DNA from: a virus
Direction: 5' to 3' (one strand)
Virus record (IMG/VR): IMGVR_UViG_3300036791_000516
Span: 1-23,313 of that record
DNA: 23,313 nucleotides
The stretch's first letter is position 1. Every line of letters starts with the position of its first letter. The position numbers and the translations under genes are program-made. The notes below the pieces were generated by a model. It saw only the letters and a program-made list of their open reading frames with translations, had not been told where the DNA came from and ran no database searches. Positions 2,692-23,313 of the stretch are shown here, one piece after another.

Positions 2692-4194
2692 ATGGACAAC
2701 AAAGTCCCCATCGATGATCTGGTGCAGTTGTGTGCAGTGGACGATCAGCTATTGTGCACCACCTTCTTCCCCAAGGCCGCGCGGCAGCAGCCCGCTCCGT
2801 TCCATTCGGATATTTGGCGCAACCTAAATGATCCAACCAAGAGGTATCTCAACCTTATCTGTTTCCGTGACAGTGCCAAGACAACGATTCTTAGAATGTT
2901 TACTGGGAAACGGGTTGCGTATAATATCAGCAAAACAATTCTCTACATCGGCGCGAGTGAAGCGCACGCCGCGCGAAGTATTCGTTGGATTCGAAATCGG
3001 ATCGAATCGAAAATGGGCCAGGACGGTAAAGAGCGTCCTGAGTTCTTCGCCCAGACCTTCGGCCTCCGCCAAGGGGCGAAATGGACTGACACTGAGCTTG
3101 AGATCTTTCATGGAATTGACACGACCCCAATTTGGATTCTTGGTGCAGGAATCACCGGAAATGTACGAGGGATCAACTTCGACGACTATCGACCCGACCT
3201 TATCGTCTTGGATGATATTCTCACCGATGAAAATGGAGCTACGTTGGAGCAGAGGGAGAAGATCACCGATCTTGTTATGGGCGCGCTTAAGGGATCTCTC
3301 GCGCCAGCGACCGAGGCGCCGAATGCCAAACTGGTCATGCTCAACACTCCGCAGGCGGTCGATGACGTTGTCCACGTTGCAGAGAACGATCCTGAATTCC
3401 ATTCCGTTCGATATAGTTGCTGGACGTCCGACACCCTTGGCCTCGATGTTGGCCAACAGGTATCGAGCTGGGAGGCCCGGCATCCCACCGATACCCGCAG
3501 AGCTGAGAAGCGCGCTGCGATTGCGCTCAATCGGCTCTCGATCTTTAGTAAGGAGAAGGAGGTTCGGATCGTCTCAAGGGAGACGGCATTCTTCCGCGAA
3601 GATTGGCTCCGCTTCTACGACGAGCCCCCGGATAGTGGCTCAACCGTTCTGGCGATTGATCCCGCGCCCCCGCCGGTTAAGCGCCTCGAGCTTCGCCAAA
3701 TAATGAAGAAGGATTATCAAGTAATTGGGGCCGTCCGCAAATATGGAGGCAATTACTACCTCCTGGATTATGCCGCCCTTCAAGCGGCCCCGCCAGAGTG
3801 GTTGCTAACCAAATTCTTCGAGATGAGGTTCCGATGGCGCCCTTACAAGTGTATGGTGGAAAGTGTAGCCTATCAAGCAACACTGAAATGGATTCTCGAG
3901 CAGGAAATGACCCGCAGGGGCCAGTGGACCACGATCGAGCCATTCAACGACATCAAGAGCAAATCCGTAAGGATCCAGTCTGCGCTTCATGGGGTTGCGA
4001 GCACGGGCCGCCTATTTGTCCGCCGGTCGCAGACCGGCTTCATCGAGCAATGGACAAAATATCCCGCAGTTGAATTCGATGATATTATGGATTTCACCGC
4101 GATGGCAGTGATCGGCCTCGGGAATTCATATCTAGCCAATGAGCGTGATGACGAAAACATCATTCCCTTCAAAGCGAGGAGAACCGCACCATGA
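2692..4194 (+). CDS. terL: Terminase large subunit, 500 aa
   Basis: This is the ATP-driven motor and nuclease that packages DNA through the portal. The N-terminal ATPase domain shows a Walker A-like motif CFRDSAKTT (residues 57-65), with Ala where the classic loop has Gly, as in many RGxAKT-type terminases. It also shows a Walker B motif LIVLDDI (170-176) and a coupling-type motif MLNTP (216-220). The C-terminal RNase H-like nuclease has the expected acidic residues at AIDPA (Asp323), MVES (Glu390) and FDDIMD (462-467). Length is typical. The start follows a modest AAGGG site. It ends in an ATGA overlap with the next gene, implying translational coupling. Confidence 0.93.
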   Translation: MDNKVPIDDLVQLCAVDDQLLCTTFFPKAARQQPAPFHSDIWRNLNDPTKRYLNLICFRDSAKTTILRMFTGKRVAYNISKTILYIGASEAHAARSIRWIRNRIESKMGQDGKERPEFFAQTFGLRQGAKWTDTELEIFHGIDTTPIWILGAGITGNVRGINFDDYRPDLIVLDDILTDENGATLEQREKITDLVMGALKGSLAPATEAPNAKLVMLNTPQAVDDVVHVAENDPEFHSVRYSCWTSDTLGLDVGQQVSSWEARHPTDTRRAEKRAAIALNRLSIFSKEKEVRIVSRETAFFREDWLRFYDEPPDSGSTVLAIDPAPPPVKRLELRQIMKKDYQVIGAVRKYGGNYYLLDYAALQAAPPEWLLTKFFEMRFRWRPYKCMVESVAYQATLKWILEQEMTRRGQWTTIEPFNDIKSKSVRIQSALHGVASTGRLFVRRSQTGFIEQWTKYPAVEFDDIMDFTAMAVIGLGNSYLANERDDENIIPFKARRTAP

Positions 4195-4424
4195 GTGATG
4201 ACAATGATCGGGACGATAAGTACTACAACGCCGAGGCGTTCTGGAAGCGGAAGCAGAGCGCAAAAGAGAACCGCGTCAGTGGCGAAGCGCCCCTGGCTGC
4301 TAAGGATAAAGATTGCGAGGCGGATAATTATAGCTTCGGCCAGAAGGGCTACAGCGAACATATGAAATCCCCCAAGTCATCTACGATCTGGGAAGATGAG
4401 CCGTGGCAGGACAAGCAAGACTAG
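4191..4424 (+). CDS. Small charged hypothetical protein, 77 aa
   Basis: It starts at the ATGA overlap with TerL and overlaps the next gene by 22 bp. The sequence (MSDDNDRDDKYYNAEAFW...) is highly charged and rich in Asp, Lys and Ser. It has no hydrophobic segment and is probably largely disordered or helical. I recognise no family. Position and coupling suggest co-expression with TerL and the virion proteins that follow. Confidence 0.65.
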   Translation: MSDDNDRDDKYYNAEAFWKRKQSAKENRVSGEAPLAAKDKDCEADNYSFGQKGYSEHMKSPKSSTIWEDEPWQDKQD

Positions 4425-5266
4425 TTGGCCAAAGCTTCCTTGGCCCTGATGAGGATTTTGAATCCTCCTACAAACGGAGGGCAGGAGATCCCTTCGATCC
4501 TCCTCCTTCCGAAGGTGCGGATTTGCCCTCGTCCGGCCCGCTGCCGCGGACTCCCTGGGCGGACCCGATGCCATTCGAACCTAAAGGCAAAGTTGAAGAC
4601 CGCCGCGAGGAAGAGAGCGTCGGGGATCTAACCGAGAGCGGCCTAAAATATTATGGCCAAAAGGCGCACGGCTTGCTTCCTCCCTTTGATCCTTCGGCCC
4701 CCGGTAGTATTACTATTCCACCTCCAACTCCGTTGGGCCGCGAGCTAGGTGCGGTGAGTCCACCAATACCATTTGAAGAAAGAATGAAAGAGCCATATAC
4801 CCTGAACAAAGACGAGATCAACTACGAAACCCGGCTGAGTCCTGAAGAGGAGAAGGGTTACCAGAAGTGGGCTAAGAGCGTCAAGCGGAGTCCAAAAGAT
4901 GAAGAGAAAGACTATGACCTCAAAGGTTACTACAAGGATGTGGTTAGGGGTAACCCGGACCTTCCGCCGTATTTGCAGGATTCCGTCCAATACCATCGGG
5001 ACCAGCTAGCCAAAACGGGTGGTAAGGGCCACCTCCCCGATATGTATAAGAAGCCAAATCATCCCACCTTCTCGGATGAGAGTGTCTATCATGGATTCCC
5101 TACGCAGCCGGAGTATCAGCCGCTCGGCGGCCATTGGGATGAAAAGGACAAAACATTCACTCCTAGCTCCACCAATATGGAACATTGGCCCCGCGAGCGG
5201 CTTCAGAGCTATTTCAACAAACACGAACCGGAATATAAAGTAAGATTTCCAGATTGGTACAAATAA
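4403..5266 (+). CDS. Phage protein with conserved C-terminal domain (DxKGYYK...PNHPTFSDES)
   Basis: The protein starts at GTG 4403, preceded by GGAAGATGAG, and is 287 aa. Residues 1-140 are proline/acidic-rich and look disordered. Residues about 141-285 form a compact domain with YDLKGYYKDV (171-180), HLPDMYKKPNHPTFSDES (210-227), GGHWDEKDKTFTPS (242-255), and a final YFNKHEPEYK. This pattern recurs at the C-terminus of assorted phage virion proteins, often near internal-virion or tail genes. Its biochemical role is unknown to me. A structural or virion-associated role is inferred from that recurrence and from the neighbours. It overlaps the previous gene by 22 bp and abuts the next. Confidence 0.7.
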   Translation: MAGQARLVGQSFLGPDEDFESSYKRRAGDPFDPPPSEGADLPSSGPLPRTPWADPMPFEPKGKVEDRREEESVGDLTESGLKYYGQKAHGLLPPFDPSAPGSITIPPPTPLGRELGAVSPPIPFEERMKEPYTLNKDEINYETRLSPEEEKGYQKWAKSVKRSPKDEEKDYDLKGYYKDVVRGNPDLPPYLQDSVQYHRDQLAKTGGKGHLPDMYKKPNHPTFSDESVYHGFPTQPEYQPLGGHWDEKDKTFTPSSTNMEHWPRERLQSYFNKHEPEYKVRFPDWYK

Positions 5267-5692
5267 ATGGTAGCGCAGTCTGATCCCTATGCGGGCCTAG
5301 AAGGTCGGAGTTTCGCCACCAGTGGGGCGATCCAATATCTCCCGCGCCGTAGGCGCACTGGCGGGGCCGCTGGAGGCCCTAGCGCGATCTTGCTCTCAGC
5401 CTCTTCATTCCCTGCAAATTCCTCCATCGGGACCGTGATCGGAACGTTTAGCGTTCCTGGAGGCGTCGGCACCTACACCTTCAGCTTCACCAGCAATCCG
5501 GGATCGCTGTTCTCCATCACAAGCAACCAGCTCAAAGTCGCGAACGCGGCCATTGGTGTTGGCACTTATCCGGTAACTGTGAAGGCAGACAACGGGGCCG
5601 GTTCGGTTATAACTACCACGTTTTCCCTAACCGCTACGGGCACCCTCTCGGGCCAGCCTATTGGGTTGCTAATGGGCATCACCTATCCCTGA
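5267..5692 (+). CDS. Cadherin/Ig-like domain structural protein, 141 aa
   Basis: The start ATG directly follows the upstream TAA, with no clear ribosome binding site, so translation is probably coupled. Residues 1-30 are a polar leader ending in a basic patch (LPRRRR). Residues about 40-123 have the signature of a cadherin-like beta sandwich: LSASSFPANSSIGTVIGTFS, a central TYTFSF strand, and a GTYPVTVKADNGAG...TTTFSLT ending. Such domains commonly decorate phage heads or tails and aid weak binding to cell-surface carbohydrate. The final segment, PIGLLMGITYP, is hydrophobic. It opens the row of adhesin-like genes between TerL and portal. Confidence 0.65.
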   Translation: MVAQSDPYAGLEGRSFATSGAIQYLPRRRRTGGAAGGPSAILLSASSFPANSSIGTVIGTFSVPGGVGTYTFSFTSNPGSLFSITSNQLKVANAAIGVGTYPVTVKADNGAGSVITTTFSLTATGTLSGQPIGLLMGITYP

Positions 5693-5713
5693 CCTTGACT
5701 AAGGAGGCACCAA

Positions 5714-6475
5714 ATGGCAGACAATATTATTGTAACCCCTGGCGTCGGCGCTACGGTTGCAATGGACGAATTGGTCGATGGCACCCTCGGCACGGTCAAG
5801 GTGCAGTACGTCAAGATCATGGACGGCACGCTAGATAGCTCCACTAAAGCGGCGGTTGGCGCTAATGGCATCAAGGTTGATGGTAGTCTTGTCACTCAGC
5901 CGGTCTCCATCGCTGGTTCTGTAACCGTCGCGCAGAGTACGGCAGCCAACCTGAAGGTTGATGCCTCAGGTCCGTGGGACAAGGGTTCCGGGACCGGCGG
6001 CACGGTGACCCAGCGGGTCATTATGGATAGCTCGCAGCTCGCGGTGCTAGCGACCGCTGCTCAGCCGATGAGTGGAGGTTACCAGTTGGCTGGTCTTCCA
6101 ACCGACCAGCGCGTCCCCAATATAGTGCAGGCACAGAACAACGGCATGACCTCCTCTCGGGTTAATGCCGCTGCGAGCACTAACGCAACCAGCCTCAAAG
6201 CCAGCGCGGGCGCGGCAGTGGACATCGATGTATTTAATGTCGCGGCGTATTCCGTGTTCCTGAAGTTTTACAACAAAGCGAGCGCGCCCACGGTCGGAAC
6301 CGATACCCCGGTTTGGACCATCCCCATTCCCGCAGCCACAGGTTTTGCGCGCACGCTGCCGTTTGGCAAATGGTTCACCACCGGAATCGCGTATGCGATT
6401 ACTAAACTCCAACCAGATAGCGACGCAACCGTCGTAGCGGCGGGGGATCTCACTGGCTCTATCGATTGGATCTAG
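5714..6475 (+). CDS. Probable virion structural protein, 253 aa
   Basis: A strong AAGGAGG site precedes the ATG. The sequence is rich in Ala, Val, Thr, Gly and Ser, with alternating hydrophobic residues typical of beta-structured virion proteins. The N-terminal segment (TLGTVKVQYVKIMDGTLDSS, KAAVGANGIKVDGS) resembles proteins often found beside phage fibre genes. The C-terminal half (AAVDIDVFNVAAYSVFLKFY, TPVWTIPIPA) has the strand-turn-strand look of a jelly-roll or beta-sandwich. There is no signal peptide. It sits 3 bp upstream of the lectin/SPRY-like fibre. Its exact role (decoration, fibre base or adaptor) is unknown. Confidence 0.6.
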   Translation: MADNIIVTPGVGATVAMDELVDGTLGTVKVQYVKIMDGTLDSSTKAAVGANGIKVDGSLVTQPVSIAGSVTVAQSTAANLKVDASGPWDKGSGTGGTVTQRVIMDSSQLAVLATAAQPMSGGYQLAGLPTDQRVPNIVQAQNNGMTSSRVNAAASTNATSLKASAGAAVDIDVFNVAAYSVFLKFYNKASAPTVGTDTPVWTIPIPAATGFARTLPFGKWFTTGIAYAITKLQPDSDATVVAAGDLTGSIDWI

Positions 6476-6478
6476 ATC

Positions 6479-7882
6479 ATGTTCGTGAGATCGGATAGTG
6501 GCCTCTGGCTCAATCAAGGTGGTTGGCAGGGAGCTGGATGGAGCCGGGCGGTCGCGGTAGGTGGCGGAAACCCTGCCTCCGATTTCCTCGCCCGAACCTC
6601 CGGCCTAAGCGCCACCTACCAAACAGCCTATACCAATATGATCAATGGCCTCGTCAGCGACGGCGTTTGGTCCAAATTGGATGTTCTCTATGTCTTCGCC
6701 ACCGCGGACACTATTACTGCGAAGCTAAATCTGATCCAGAACGCCTACAACGCCACAGCACCGAGCGGAGACCCCACCTTCACTGCGGGGGCGGGTTATC
6801 AGAATCCAACAACCAAATATCTGGACAGCGGCTTCAACGCCAGCACGGCAGCCGTTCCGAAGTACGTTCAAAATAGCGCCTGCATGTTCAATTGGAATGC
6901 TCTAATACTCGGTGATGATGGTGCAAACATCGGGCTCGTGAGTGGCGGAAATAACGATTTTGTCAATCGTAACACTTCAGGTCAACTTTCGATAAGAATA
7001 AATGCTACGGCTGCTATAACTATAGCGAACGTAGACGCAAGCGGACTGATTCTTACCAACCGGACAACCTCCTCGAATGTGGACGTCTATCAAAACTCGG
7101 CGGTTCTTTCGGCTGGAAATTCCAGCACCTCGGCCGCGGTGCAGAATTCCAATATGACATTCTTCACTGGTACTAGCTTCAACATTAACTCGCAGCTCAA
7201 ATTCGGAGGGTGGGGATCGCAGCTAACCGCGACGGATGTCACAAACCTCTACACCCGGATGGTCGCATTCCTTGCTGCCACTACAATGAAATGGAACTCC
7301 GGGGATCGTATAACAACCTCGCTAACCAATAACGATCTGTCGGCGACAGATAACGCCGGCTCCTCTTCACCATTCACCCAAGTGAGGGCCACTAAGAGCA
7401 TCTCCACTTCCAAAAAATATTATTTTGAGATCGTTATCAATACTGTTGTTGGCGGGCCAAGTCCTGGAACCCAATTTATCGGACTCTGCCCTAGCTCGCA
7501 CACGCTCGGCGCGAGCCTGATCGCCAGTGCAGACGCCATTGGGTTACGTGATGATCAGCCCTCATGGTTGATAAACTTCGTGAATAAGGGCACTTCTGCG
7601 GGCCCCTTCGGCGTCGCGGGTACCGTGGTCGGTGTAGCTGTCGATGGTACTAACAAAACTTGTTGGAACACACTTGATGGCACGGCGTGGAATGGTAGTG
7701 GCACAAACAGCCCGGCGACGAACGTCGGGGGCGCCGATCTTTCCACTCTAACATTCCCCTTGTTCCCAACCTGGTCATCAGCGTCGTTCACTCAGAAGGT
7801 TACCGCGCGTTTCGATTCGGGCTTTACCCTCGCCACACCTGGCAGCGGGGCGTTGGCTGGATTCTCGGTATGGGGAAGCTAA
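6479..7882 (+). CDS. Lectin-like plus SPRY-like tail fibre protein, 467 aa
   Basis: Two beta-rich regions are visible. Residues about 33-260 contain ARTSGLSATYQTAYTNMI and GVWSKLDVLYVFATAD, a pattern seen in phage and prophage fibre proteins with a concanavalin/LamG-like fold. Residues about 269-460 look like a SPRY domain: WNSGDRITTSLTNNDLSAT, VRATKSISTSKKYYFEI, IGLCPSS..LG and GVAVDGTNKTCWNTLDG. Both domain types serve in ligand binding, so a receptor-binding or host-adhesion role is likely. It starts 3 bp after the previous stop and abuts the tailspike gene, so the genes are probably co-transcribed and assembled together. Confidence 0.7.
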   Translation: MFVRSDSGLWLNQGGWQGAGWSRAVAVGGGNPASDFLARTSGLSATYQTAYTNMINGLVSDGVWSKLDVLYVFATADTITAKLNLIQNAYNATAPSGDPTFTAGAGYQNPTTKYLDSGFNASTAAVPKYVQNSACMFNWNALILGDDGANIGLVSGGNNDFVNRNTSGQLSIRINATAAITIANVDASGLILTNRTTSSNVDVYQNSAVLSAGNSSTSAAVQNSNMTFFTGTSFNINSQLKFGGWGSQLTATDVTNLYTRMVAFLAATTMKWNSGDRITTSLTNNDLSATDNAGSSSPFTQVRATKSISTSKKYYFEIVINTVVGGPSPGTQFIGLCPSSHTLGASLIASADAIGLRDDQPSWLINFVNKGTSAGPFGVAGTVVGVAVDGTNKTCWNTLDGTAWNGSGTNSPATNVGGADLSTLTFPLFPTWSSASFTQKVTARFDSGFTLATPGSGALAGFSVWGS

Positions 7883-10210
7883 ATGGTCGATCTGGTTGCC
7901 AATTATGGTGGAGTCGGAGATGGCCAGTTCTATACCTCGGCGGTCTTAACGATCAGCGTGGGGACTAAGAACCTCCACTGCTCCACCCCGATCTGGGCGG
8001 CGGGAGATGTGGGAAAGAATATCCGCGTCGGGGGCGCAGGGCAGAGCACAGGTGGCGGTACGCCGGCCGCCCTCGTGCTTGTCAGCACCATCGATACATT
8101 TACCGATTCGCAAAACGTAATCCTTCACGACAACGCTATCTCGGCGCTCAGCGCCGCATCTAGCTATATATCATGGGGCACGGATAACTCAGGGGCGATA
8201 ACGGCGTTTAATTCCGCGAACGCGGGAGCTTCAAACATCACCCTTACCGCGCCCGCGGGGAAGTTTTTCATCACACCTACAGGTGGTGGAGGTGTCACGC
8301 TAGGGGCCGGTGTTCGGAGCATGACGTTTGCCGGCGCGGGTGTGGGCTCAACGTATTTGATCGGAGCGGTTCAGTTCGGCGGTGGTGGAATTCAGCCGTT
8401 CGGAGACACCAGCGCGAGAGTGGCGACAGTCCAGATCGGAGCTTCGACCGCTACTTTGTTAAATGTTTCAGATGCTTCGCGGTTCTCTCCTCCTCAGTGG
8501 TGTGTTCTAGCCTCCGTCGATTTGCAAGGATCGGCCTCGTTTCCGCCTAATAATGTATTCTGGGATTATGTGCAGGTTACGGCGATCAATGGAGTGTCGG
8601 GATTGGTGACCTTCGACCGCGCGGTTGCCAATTTCCATAAATCGACCTATCCGCTATTCGATCCGGGTCTGGGTGTGAAGGCATCTCCGGGCTCCCCGCA
8701 TAACTGCGCCGCGGGAGGGCCGGCCACCTTGTTTATTCTAAACCCCACCTGGGATATTCAGGCGACCTTCCAGGACTTCACCTTCGTCGGAGATCCAGGC
8801 CAAGGAACAAATTCTAATGGTAGAGTTATCAGATTCCTACGCTGCGCGGGACCAGATCAGGGGCCGGTGGTGTCCACTAATATGCAATGGTCAATAGACA
8901 CAAGCAACTTCCCGGCCTATGGTGTTGAAGTCGACAAAATGATCGACAGCATGGTGGTTTCGAATAGCACTTTTTCTTCTATATTCATGCAGAGCGCCTC
9001 GCCTAGGAGCGGCATCTTTACCGGCAACACGATAGCCAACCTCTCCGGTGGCGGCGTCAATATCGTATCAAGTGGTAACACGTTCTCAAACATCGGTGTC
9101 GGAGTGGGCGGGTTTGGCGTATCGAACTCGTGGAGTTCGACCAGTGATAGCCTTGCCACTATAACGCCTGGGGGCGCGCTAATTCCCGACGTGACGATCT
9201 ATGGGCTGCAAAATGGAATCATATCGTATCCTCTAGGCTCCGGGCCTGTGCGCTGGGCTGTTCCCGGTTGTCGGGTGTTCTTCACCGGCGGCAACCCTAA
9301 TGAGGGTAATTCCTTCGTCGTTACAGACATCGGAACAGACGGCAACGCGGTTTATGCCTCGCTTACGATCGGCTCCGGGTCCGCCGTGTTAAGCTCAGCA
9401 ATCGCCCTGTGGTCTCTGCAAGATGTCGGAAAGCCGATTAGAGTGAACGGTGCCGGGGCGTCAGCTGCACCTCTAGTAACAACCATCGCCGGATTCACAG
9501 ACTCATCTCATATCACCTTAGGCGCCGCAGCAGCGACTGCGCTTGTAGCTTCCACCCAATACGTCGTGTGGGGGAGCAATCTAATCTACACGCGCGGGCC
9601 GTTGATAAATTCGTGGCCTAACCTTCTCAAAACGGGAGGTGGTCTACTCGGGCTACAAGGTGCCCCTGTAAACAGCGGAGTGACGTTTTCGAATTGCACC
9701 GGATGTCCTGACGCTATTGATCTATCTCAGGCGCCCGCGAACAGACCCCTTTATTCATACACCAAACGTACCTACAACGCTACGAGCTGGGGGACCGGCG
9801 TAGCAGGGGTGCAGCCGACACTCAACCTCTGGGGTGCATTCACTACGATCAATATCAATGTTACGAAGGCTTATACTGGTGCTCAATCGACTTGTATATT
9901 AACTGCTCTTGCGCGTGGTATTCAAGTGCAACTGATGGATGGATCGATGGTGACGTGGGATATCAAAATCAATATGAAGGTAGCCGGCCTGCGCACGGTC
10001 ACGCCGGGGAATATTGTAGGACTTCAATCCGGAGATAGCATTCCAGGGAAGAATTATGCGTGGTTTCCCGGGACTCTAGCTCCATATCTAGAAACCGACA
10101 TCAGCGGCGATGCCACTGCGACTTGGCCGACCGTTACGATTGAGGTGATTTCCGATCAAGGATTCTTCCCGCCGGTGGTTATGCCGCTTCGGACACTAAT
10201 GCACGCTTAG
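7883..10210 (+). CDS. Large beta-helix-like tailspike protein, 775 aa
   Basis: The ATG directly follows the upstream TAA. Residues 21-102 are a module (LTISVGTKNL..., DVGKNIRVGGAG, TIDTFTDS, SYISWGTDN) of the kind that precedes pectate-lyase-like beta helices in phage tailspikes. A long stretch rich in short Gly, Ser, Asn and Val repeats (about 105-430, for example FTGNTIANLSGGGVNIVSSGNTF) fits a right-handed beta helix that may bind or cleave a surface polysaccharide. No catalytic residues can be assigned by eye. Residues 493-566 repeat the first module. A beta-rich C-terminal domain follows (about 630-775). It is the largest protein here and the likely main host-range determinant. Confidence 0.75.
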   Translation: MVDLVANYGGVGDGQFYTSAVLTISVGTKNLHCSTPIWAAGDVGKNIRVGGAGQSTGGGTPAALVLVSTIDTFTDSQNVILHDNAISALSAASSYISWGTDNSGAITAFNSANAGASNITLTAPAGKFFITPTGGGGVTLGAGVRSMTFAGAGVGSTYLIGAVQFGGGGIQPFGDTSARVATVQIGASTATLLNVSDASRFSPPQWCVLASVDLQGSASFPPNNVFWDYVQVTAINGVSGLVTFDRAVANFHKSTYPLFDPGLGVKASPGSPHNCAAGGPATLFILNPTWDIQATFQDFTFVGDPGQGTNSNGRVIRFLRCAGPDQGPVVSTNMQWSIDTSNFPAYGVEVDKMIDSMVVSNSTFSSIFMQSASPRSGIFTGNTIANLSGGGVNIVSSGNTFSNIGVGVGGFGVSNSWSSTSDSLATITPGGALIPDVTIYGLQNGIISYPLGSGPVRWAVPGCRVFFTGGNPNEGNSFVVTDIGTDGNAVYASLTIGSGSAVLSSAIALWSLQDVGKPIRVNGAGASAAPLVTTIAGFTDSSHITLGAAAATALVASTQYVVWGSNLIYTRGPLINSWPNLLKTGGGLLGLQGAPVNSGVTFSNCTGCPDAIDLSQAPANRPLYSYTKRTYNATSWGTGVAGVQPTLNLWGAFTTININVTKAYTGAQSTCILTALARGIQVQLMDGSMVTWDIKINMKVAGLRTVTPGNIVGLQSGDSIPGKNYAWFPGTLAPYLETDISGDATATWPTVTIEVISDQGFFPPVVMPLRTLMHA

Positions 10211-14712: not shown

Positions 14713-14723
14713 AGGAGGCAGAG

Positions 14724-15095
14724 ATGCAGGGCGAATTGATAGAATCTTCGGTCATCCGCAAAAGCAAGTGGGATGGTCCGTTCGCGATGACGAGCCAGAA
14801 TTTGGCAATCGCGGGCGCGTATACGGTACCGGGAGGAGCGGGCGGCCAGTCCCCGCCCTATATGATCGTACTTAACCCCGGTGCGACCACCCAAGTTGTG
14901 ACTATGTATCCTCCGAGCCCGGCGACCGTGATGTGGTGCCATGAGATTTGGAACTCCAGCGTCGGCGCGGGAGCGCTTACCCTTCACGGGGTCGCGGGCG
15001 CTACGATTGGGTCCGTAGCTCCGGGCAAGAGGGCAGAGGTGGTCTGGAATATCTACGCCAGCCCAGCAGAATGGGTGGCGTTCCTGAGCGCGTAA
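14724..15095 (+). CDS. Probable head decoration or fibre protein, 123 aa
   Basis: The start at 14724 is fixed by AAAGGAGG just upstream. An earlier in-frame codon (14646) overlaps the capsid gene and has no binding site. The sequence is beta-rich (AGAYTVPGGAGG, YMIVLNPGATTQVVTMYPPSP, GALTLHGVAGATIGSVAPGKRAEVVWNIYA). This is a pattern common in small phage surface proteins that form trimeric or jelly-roll decorations. It directly follows the capsid gene and precedes the terminator, so it belongs to the same expression unit and is probably made in large amounts. The role is inferred. Confidence 0.65.
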   Translation: MQGELIESSVIRKSKWDGPFAMTSQNLAIAGAYTVPGGAGGQSPPYMIVLNPGATTQVVTMYPPSPATVMWCHEIWNSSVGAGALTLHGVAGATIGSVAPGKRAEVVWNIYASPAEWVAFLSA

Positions 15096-21258: not shown

Positions 21259-21719
21259 TTTTAGAAATTGAAGAAGAAGTTAGGCCACAGCAGAAATCGG
21301 TCTTTTTGATGAGTTCCGAACAGATCGATGACCATTGGCCGAATATCCAGCGCCTCATGGCGGAGTGCCCAGGGTATTATGATTTCTATACACCGGAGTG
21401 GACCTACAGCCGCGCGAAGAGCGGGGATCTCCAGCTCTGGGCCCTAAGCGATGGGGCGATCCGAGGGATTATCGTGACCCAGATTGTGGTCTTCCCGGTG
21501 CAGAAAGTGTTCGAGATCCTCGGTGCCGCAGGCATCGGCCTATTGGAGTATTTCGATGAAATGGAGAAGATGTTCGATTTCATCGCGGTTGACGCGGGAT
21601 GTCAGACGATTATTACTCGGGTTCGACCGGGCTTGGAACGCCTTCTTACCAAACGCAAGCTGGCGCATAAGACCGCGGTGTTGATGAGCAGGCCGGTCGG
21701 GAAGCATAGGAGGCACTGA
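21255..21719 (+). CDS. GNAT-like acyltransferase-fold protein, 154 aa
   Basis: GTG start at 21255 overlaps the upstream TGA, with AAGGGGCAAGGAA before it. The protein shows an N-terminal helix region (SEQIDDHWPNIQRLMAECPG), central strands (LQLWALSDGAIRGIIVTQIVVFP) and a later helix (YFDEMEKMFDFIAVDAGCQTIITRVRPGLERLLTKRKL). This order and the 150-residue size fit phage GNAT-fold proteins often found next to internal-virion genes. The canonical acetyl-CoA loop (Q/RxxGxG/A) is not evident, so it may be a non-catalytic virion component comparable in position to T7 gp13. This comparison is inference. Confidence 0.6.
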   Translation: MILEIEEEVRPQQKSVFLMSSEQIDDHWPNIQRLMAECPGYYDFYTPEWTYSRAKSGDLQLWALSDGAIRGIIVTQIVVFPVQKVFEILGAAGIGLLEYFDEMEKMFDFIAVDAGCQTIITRVRPGLERLLTKRKLAHKTAVLMSRPVGKHRRH

Positions 21720-22738
21720 TGGGTGGAGGGACGAGTAGCAACCAGACCACCACTACCCAGCAACTCACTCCTGAGCAGCAGGGGTTGGTTGGTCTGGCTT
21801 ATCCGCAGTATCAGAACTTTGCGGCGAGCAATCCGAGCCTCCCCACGGGCGCGCAGGCGGTCGCGGGTTTCACCCCTGCGCAGCAGGCGGGGCAGAACGC
21901 AGTGCTCGGTGCCACGGGAGTTGGAGGTGCTCCGTCTCCGACGCAGACGCCAGCGGGGTACGGTCCGCAGACTGCGGCTGGCGGAGGGGTGCCTTCAACT
22001 CCATCGCCGGGCACTGGCGCTTGGGGAGCGGTGCCTGGCACCACGAATATGCAAGGCGGCCCCGGCCCGCCCAATATGGGGGGCGTCACTGGCACTGCAG
22101 CGGGCACGAACCAATATCTCAGTTCCGGGGCGTTCCTTGATCCGGGAAGTAACCCCTATGTGCAAAGTGCGGTCAACGCGGCGACCGCGCCGATATTCCA
22201 GGATCTGAGCCAGCGGACCCTCCCGCAACAGCAGGCGGCGGGCGCAGCGGGCTCTGGGGTTAATTTTGGAGGAAGTCGGGAAGGAGTGCAGGAGGGCCTT
22301 GACGTTCAGGGGGCCCAGCGCGCGGCGGGTCAGACGGGTGCGAATATTATGAACGCCGCGCTTCAATCTGGCCTCCAAGCAACCAATCAAGCGATCGGGC
22401 AGGCTCCGACCACTGCGACGAGCCTGGCAATTCCGGGTGCGACCGCGGAGGCGGTTGGGGGCCAGCAACAGACCCAACAACAGAACGTGCTAAATGCCAA
22501 TAACCAAGCAGCTTGGTTCCAGCAGATGCTCCCGCTTCTCAAGGCGCAGATGCTAACTCAGGGGGCGCAAGGACTGCCGGGCGGCAGCACTACGGCAGTC
22601 GGACAGGGAACCCAAGACCCCGGATTGTTTGCTAATATTCTTGGCGCAGCAAGTGCTGGTGGCGGCCTACTCGGTGGAATAGGCAAGCTAGGAGGGAGCG
22701 GTGGGCTTGGCGCCCTCCTCCCTTTATTGGCTCTGTAG
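21719..22738 (+). CDS. Putative internal virion/ejection protein, 339 aa (357 aa if frameshifted)
   Basis: The protein begins MGGGTSSNQTTTTQQLTPEQQGLVGLAYPQ, a pattern common in podovirus proteins placed next to internal core genes. It is Gly, Gln and Ala-rich, with likely helices around YVQSAVNAATAPIFQDLSQ and GANIMNAALQSGLQATNQAI. The C-terminal region is glycine-rich and hydrophobic (GGGLLGGIGKLGGSGGLGALLPLLAL). A slippery C CCT TTA sits four codons before the stop. The -1 frame continues for 21 codons to a stop inside the next gene's ribosome binding site. Ejection proteins enter the host with DNA, but no sequence motif proves that role here. Confidence 0.65.
   Translation: MGGGTSSNQTTTTQQLTPEQQGLVGLAYPQYQNFAASNPSLPTGAQAVAGFTPAQQAGQNAVLGATGVGGAPSPTQTPAGYGPQTAAGGGVPSTPSPGTGAWGAVPGTTNMQGGPGPPNMGGVTGTAAGTNQYLSSGAFLDPGSNPYVQSAVNAATAPIFQDLSQRTLPQQQAAGAAGSGVNFGGSREGVQEGLDVQGAQRAAGQTGANIMNAALQSGLQATNQAIGQAPTTATSLAIPGATAEAVGGQQQTQQQNVLNANNQAAWFQQMLPLLKAQMLTQGAQGLPGGSTTAVGQGTQDPGLFANILGAASAGGGLLGGIGKLGGSGGLGALLPLLAL
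22720..22726 (+). promoter_or_regulatory. Candidate -1 ribosomal frameshift site C CCT TTA
   Basis: The heptamer fits the X XXY YYZ rule in the correct reading frame (CCT and TTA are zero-frame codons 335 and 336). Slippage would re-pair with CCC and TTT and continue at ATT 22726. No strong downstream structure is obvious, though TCGG-CAAC-CCGA can form a small hairpin about 30 nt on. A single missing T in a TTTT run would explain the same pattern without programmed shifting. Confidence 0.45.
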
Positions 22739-22791
22739 CGCCGGGCGGCCAGTCGATCGGCAACCCGACGCAACTCGGCGGATTGTATTAG
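22726..22791 (+). other. Possible -1 frame C-terminal extension
   Basis: Twenty-one sense codons, opening IGSVAPGGQSIGNP and closing TQLGGLY, run from the slippery site to TAG at 22789-22791. That stop overlaps the AGGAGG (22790-22795) of the next gene. The gap after the zero-frame stop is otherwise the longest noncoding stretch in the tightly packed region after 18.1 kb, which suggests these codons are used. The composition (Gly, Gln, Asn, Pro) matches the host protein. Confidence 0.45.
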
Positions 22792-22801
22792 GAGGCAGCA
22801 A

Positions 22802-23313
22802 ATGGCAAACGGCGATGATTATAATCCTCTCGATCCCAATCCGCCGGGGACGATGACCGGCCTCGGGATCGGGCCTAATGATCCCCTCAATGATTGGGCC
22901 TCGAATACGAAGCCGGCCGATCTGCAAAGATTTGTGCACGATCCGGAGGGGGCGGTGCAGGGCCTGATCGATCAGGGGAAACCGCCTCCAGACCACCACT
23001 ATGTTTCTGATCCCAATGGCAACCTCACGCCCGCGACCGCGGATCATGCCGCACTGATGGATGCTGCGAAGCAGAAGCTCACTGAGGCGCTAAATCAGCA
23101 GCGGGGCCAGCAGCCGGAGACGCCGCTCATAGCGCCTCCAACAGCTTCCGCGACACGGAGCGCGGCGCCTATACCCGACCCGAGTCAGGGGAATATCACG
23201 CGCCCGCTGGGGTTTTCAACCGAACCCCCGCCGAGACCGGAAGATACGGCGGGCACGCCGAGCCAGCGGAGGCCGATTCCTCCGACTCAGACGATACCGC
23301 CTTCCGGCCCGCT
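22802..23313 (+). CDS. Partial gene, Pro/Asp/Gln-rich N-terminus, cut by the window edge
   Basis: AGGAGG lies 6 nt before the ATG, and the frame stays open for 170 codons to the right end. The visible part begins MANGDDYNPLDPNPPG and includes DLQRFVHDPEGAVQGLIDQG and a helical KQKLTEALNQQ, followed by a proline-rich, low-complexity linker. It looks like the disordered leader of a larger protein. Following the putative ejection protein, a large internal-virion protein is plausible, but no domain is visible to support that. Confidence 0.7.
   Translation, partial: MANGDDYNPLDPNPPGTMTGLGIGPNDPLNDWASNTKPADLQRFVHDPEGAVQGLIDQGKPPPDHHYVSDPNGNLTPATADHAALMDAAKQKLTEALNQQRGQQPETPLIAPPTASATRSAAPIPDPSQGNITRPLGFSTEPPPRPEDTAGTPSQRRPIPPTQTIPPSGP

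Follow-up and report, generated by a model that had tools for sequence, protein, structure and literature searches.

A candidate lineage-specific −1 frameshift site close to the stop codon of a gene for a probable podovirus-like ejection protein

The 3' end of the gene at positions 21719–22738 raises the question of whether its product always ends at the annotated stop codon or is in part extended by a −1 frameshift. The window analyzed is the whole 23,313-base virus record, which matches SU10-type portal and major capsid proteins (SU10_portal and SU10_MCP), and features of the locus are given on its plus strand. Translated in the zero frame, the gene gives a product of 339 aa with the C-terminus GALLPLLAL*, probably a DNA-ejection (internal virion) protein, and it has homologues in four related contig types. 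The final zero-frame codons are CTC CTC CCT TTA TTG GCT CTG TAG, and the stop TAG (22736–22738) lies where the family C-terminus normally ends. Just before this stop is the candidate −1 slip site CCCTTTA (22720–22726), which in the zero frame reads C CCT TTA and so falls in the X_XXY_YYZ register. Past the heptamer the −1 frame reads ATT GGC TCT ... TTG TAT TAG, encoding IGSVAPGGQSIGNPTQLGGLY*, a tail of 21 codons (22726–22791) with its stop TAG at 22789–22791. The tail contains neither Lys nor Arg. The −1 stop overlaps AGGAGG (22790–22795), the ribosome-binding site of the next gene, as the TAG of TAGGAGG. The next gene (22802–23311) begins with an ATG at 22802, has an N-terminus that is conserved in relatives and is open at the end of the window. 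The frame-shifted product would comprise 336 + 21 = 357 aa. The first-pass annotation had given the same phase for the heptamer, the same positions for the heptamer and the tail (22720–22791), and the same two product lengths, and was correct in all of them.

The 339-aa protein has no family match of its own, and a search for relatives with solved structures returned weak chance matches only. It aligns with proteins of Vibrio phage PVS_22, Caulobacter phage Kuura_019 and Microcystis phage Mel-JY34. Among its homologues, those of PVS_22 (E 4.7e-56), Kuura_019 (E 3.9e-21) and the contig L029 (E 0.017) match phrog_4287, "DNA ejection protein". The window gene sits in the virion gene block after the tail genes, and in the named phages the homologous gene precedes the large genes of the virion block. 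The label "ejection-type", already used in the first-pass annotation, therefore appears reasonable for the product of 21719–22738 on the strength of these alignments. The phrog_4287 genes of PVS_22 and Kuura_019 resemble the window gene in encoding a homologous protein upstream of large internal virion genes but, unlike the candidate described here, are single open reading frames without a frameshift. To our knowledge, no recoding site is known in this class of ejection protein gene.

The −1 frame is open beyond the zero-frame stop and looks like coding DNA. Under a codon model trained on the window, the tail scores +0.275 per codon, above the gene mean of +0.20, and of 1124 open out-of-frame stretches not one scored as high. 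When the codon model was built from relatives only, the coding signal was weaker and moderate, the score of the tail being reached by 0.9–1.5% of out-of-frame stretches and by 4.4% of open dinucleotide shuffles (p ~0.04). The relatives-trained model places the best change point between the frames at 22721, within the heptamer. The parent protein has an unusual Gly/Gln/Ala/Pro/Thr composition. An amino acid composition as parent-like as that of the tail was seen in none of 2767 out-of-frame stretches, in a single one of 3334 open dinucleotide shuffles and, among 128 spacer frames from related contigs, in 2. These tests overlap one another and the skewed composition of the parent helps the score. 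The remaining two frames of the gap score badly as coding. The earlier description of 21 protein-like −1 codons running to a TAG that overlaps AGGAGG is borne out, the coding-like score being confined to the −1 frame, and its placing of the frame switch close to the heptamer agrees with the change point. No ATG, GTG or TTG opens the −1 frame, which offers only an ATT at 22726, so that re-initiation inside the tail was rejected and the tail is reachable only by a frame switch. Homologues of the tail peptide were found neither in phages nor in bacterial genomes, and viral contigs gave none that was related. Taken together, the coding tests are good, though not decisive, evidence that the tail is translated now or was until recently.

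The heptamer itself is less telling. In-phase XXXYYYZ motifs occupy 17 of 6772 codon positions (0.25%), which corresponds to ~0.44 expected terminal motifs per 22 genes, and among 950 genes from related contigs 16 (about one in sixty) carry an in-phase heptamer within their last 8 codons. Four of those 16 have a −1 frame running 30–150 nt into the spacer, and none of the four has a coding-like tail. Because terminal heptamers arise by chance at this rate, the heptamer and the open frame by themselves are weak evidence, within chance, and it is the protein-like tail that stands out. The type of heptamer also bears on how well it might work. When all 64 heptamers were tested in E. coli, the efficient U-type motifs ended in a pyrimidine (H_HH.U_UU.Y), that is in U_UU.Y and not U_UU.A, and this was explained by the poor tolerance of bacterial ribosomes for a non-cognate A-site pair after the shift (PMC4066793). 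Compared with that list, C_CCU_UUA lies outside the efficient E. coli classes (PMC4066793). Since the efficient U-type motifs end in a pyrimidine, C_CCU_UUA is expected to be weak as a slip site, although heptamers of low efficiency are nonetheless employed by some frameshift elements. A second terminal in-phase heptamer of the window, GGGAAAA (2274–2280), lies at the end of the gene at 1633–2286, and its 65-nt −1 extension is not coding-like (score −0.09).

Known upstream SD-like stimulators sit 10–14 nt from the slip site. An SD-like AGGAGGG is present 23 nt upstream of the heptamer, farther than this spacing, and is predicted to pair with the heptamer-containing CCCTCCTCCC. The resulting predicted hairpin (AGGAGGG...CCCTCCTCCCTTT, 22690–22726), the 3' arm of which includes the heptamer, is not a recognized stimulator. 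An intrinsic terminator at this GC-rich hairpin before the heptamer was considered and rejected, as the terminator scan detected none there. On the 3' side, a stem-loop of −19.9 kcal/mol is predicted ~8 nt from the heptamer (22735–22770), with a z-score of −1.27 that is not better than shuffles. Downstream structure as a whole gave z-scores of −0.09 to −1.27 relative to shuffles, with no stimulator standing out, and Rfam gave no match.

Relatives were collected through the portal protein, which gave seven close contigs, and through a portal profile, which led to 59 loci. The target gene was found in 5 of the first 7 contigs, a search of 40 further records yielded it in 23, and the 28 homologues read are distinct sequences with a complete 3' end together with the three named phages. 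All 28 have one frame open to a single stop, and among them neither the pair of heptamer and tail nor any relative of the tail was found. A terminal in-phase heptamer occurs in a single homologue, L117, where the motif is TTTGGGA and the −1 frame stays open for 542 nt, well beyond the spacer. Judged by the C-terminus, L029 is the closest relative; it ends GGSGGLAALLPLL* (last residues ALLPLL), in alignment with GGSGGLGALLPLLAL* (ALLPLLAL) of the window, and TAGGAGG follows immediately. Its Pro-Leu is coded CCC CTT, which breaks the heptamer, so that L029 has the same two residues without the slip site. The short hydrophobic C-terminal stretch is also found in L028, L105, L107 and L108, with family ends such as LLPFFMM* (L028), LLPLLLA* (L105) and LAPLLAFI* (L107) alongside that of L029. 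Because L029 and other relatives end at the matching position, the zero-frame stop of the window looks, from the aligned ends, like the original end of the gene. The first-pass annotation had proposed to align homologues for a conserved heptamer or −1 ending, and neither appears, the nearest relative ending at the zero-frame stop with the ribosome-binding site directly behind it. The annotation had itself named homologues that terminate at the zero-frame stop, with nothing conserved behind it, as a refutation. By that test a conserved programmed frameshift is refuted, and what survives is a putative young, lineage-specific one. As a separate difference between the relatives, the target protein contains an insert of ~50 residues rich in Gly/Pro/Thr/Gln (residues 68–119, window 21920–22080), which is absent from L029, L030 and L031 and takes a different form in L028.

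Additions at the C-terminus do occur in the family at the same point. L030 (NPGGGGGGTTGV) and L031 (KPVANSMMGGGSPTGYGS) carry in-frame, hydrophilic Gly-rich tails after the hydrophobic segment, and in L104 (G012) an in-frame Peptidase_S74 domain of the endosialidase chaperone type comes straight after GLLPLF. In L107 (G016) a hydrophobic small open reading frame of ~30 codons lies directly behind the stop of the homologue, so the junction accepts insertions in other lineages too. In the lineage of the window, 53 extra bases separate the zero-frame stop from the ribosome-binding site of the next gene, and the gap up to the ATG at 22802 is 63 nt for the zero-frame stop and 10 nt for the −1 stop. 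The next start is 3–16 nt past the stop in 20 of 25 contig homologues at this junction, which makes the 63-nt gap unusual and the distance of 10 nt typical. The gap had been called unusual among genes that otherwise touch or overlap; the first part stands at this junction, whereas the second holds only in part, since the window gene list includes gaps of 45, 21 and 13 nt and several of >200 nt, some of which contain small open reading frames. A duplication of other DNA of the window or its relatives as the source of the 53 bp was rejected, as no match extended beyond 13–17 nt.

The reading that we favor, tentatively and at somewhat less than an even chance, is that the 21-codon tail is specific to this lineage and is reached by low-level −1 slippage. 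The main product would end at the zero-frame stop with 339 aa, as in relatives, and the 53 extra bases would extend the −1 frame by 21 codons in the Gly/Gln/Pro/Ser/Thr-rich style of the parent. A minority of ribosomes would probably slip by −1 at C CCT TTA, with tRNA-Pro moving from CCU to CCC and tRNA-Leu from UUA to UUU, giving GALLPL-IGSVAPGG... and the 357-aa form. This slippage would explain why a heptamer lies where the frames switch, why the tail resembles coding sequence, why the zero-frame end looks original and why the spacing is as it is, and it leaves the lack of conservation unaccounted for. The register, the open frame, the protein-like tail, its lack of a start codon and its absence from relatives are established directly, whereas we infer the slippage itself, its low expected rate and any role of the tail. 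A somewhat doubtful claim is the more specific one that a newly arisen −1 programmed frameshift, with a heptamer expected to be weak in bacteria, places a 21-residue tail, so far shared by no known relative, on a minority of a podovirus-like ejection protein. The weights implied by our wording for the three readings compared here are a matter of judgement, not of computation.

One of the other two readings is that the tail is never made, the 53 bp being noncoding spacer or debris, either inserted in this lineage or left over as the 3' part of a small gene since displaced, and the heptamer and the open −1 frame being coincidence. We consider this doubtful but a serious contender. In its favor are the chance terminal heptamers in related genes (16 of 950), the fact that most shuffles (over half) keep the frame open and that a stop comes with any TAGGAGG in one of the three frames, the small open reading frame at the same junction in L107, and the lack of conservation of both site and tail. 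It is less easily reconciled with the codon use of the tail and above all with its parent-like composition, which is rare in shuffles and spacers, and the 53 bp match none of the other DNA collected. According to the remaining reading there was, or truly is, a single 357-aa open reading frame from which one base has been lost by mutation or missed in assembly within the CCC/TTT runs, in which case the Gly-rich tail would be in frame and the true C-terminus. That every homologue reads in one frame, that the hydrophobic segment is followed by an in-frame tail in L030 and L031 and by an S74 domain in L104, and that the tail ends at the distance from the next gene that is typical of the family are all in its favor. 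Such a loss would nevertheless have to bring LLAL* exactly to an L029-type end, a coincidence that we estimate at a few percent, and the runs are merely three bases long. A search for conspecific copies with a different T count gave two pattern matches, both unrelated, and turned up no other copy of the locus in which the base count differs; we regard a one-base indel as unlikely. The first-pass annotation had called the frameshift likely. The phase, the tail, the switch point and the spacing bear this out, but conservation and the heptamer class do not, the predicted structure stays within the range of shuffles, and the word is too strong because a one-base deletion, a sequence error or chance may instead lie behind the locus.

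Terminal −1 extensions of this general form are known from capsid genes. In T7/T3 gene 10 (10A/10B), as in the window, the slip site is located just before the zero-frame stop and a minority product carries a −1 C-terminal extension, with slippage of ~10% shown experimentally, as cited in PMC9965538. Gene 10 differs in being a capsid gene with a longer extension, whereas the window has a probable ejection gene, an extension of 21 codons and no conservation. The phiEco32/SU10 (Kuravirus-like) group has a GGGAAAG heptamer near the stop of the major capsid gene, followed by a −1 extension that in SU10 itself is short, ending 39 nt downstream (PMC9965538). The likeness to the window lies in a structural gene with a −1 extension after a terminal heptamer and in the related portal and capsid proteins, but the window site is in a different gene. 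An SU10-type frameshift in the window's own capsid gene was rejected, as there is no heptamer and the gene that follows starts from an ATG and a ribosome-binding site of its own. If the frameshift is real, terminal −1 extensions known from capsid genes would reach ejection proteins, involving no new mechanism, and a single phage lineage could acquire a recoding signal where a structural gene ends (3') while the relatives of that gene are without it. If an indel or chance is the explanation, the locus would show that a textbook heptamer with an open frame is insufficient, given that chance gives about one gene in sixty of these contigs a terminal heptamer.

Elsewhere in the window, ~5.8 kb of genes (4403–10210) lie between the terminase (2692–4194) and the portal (10221), an interval of <1 kb in L003 and L008, and this block is perhaps an inserted cassette. 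It includes a 775-aa protein (7883–10210) with a weak match to the pectin-lyase-type phage family phrog_32881. The small gene behind the major capsid gene is single in the window (14715–15095) and in L008. L003 (14467–15255) and L006 (14498–15244) each have two related copies of it in tandem, which looks like the duplication of a decoration-type protein.
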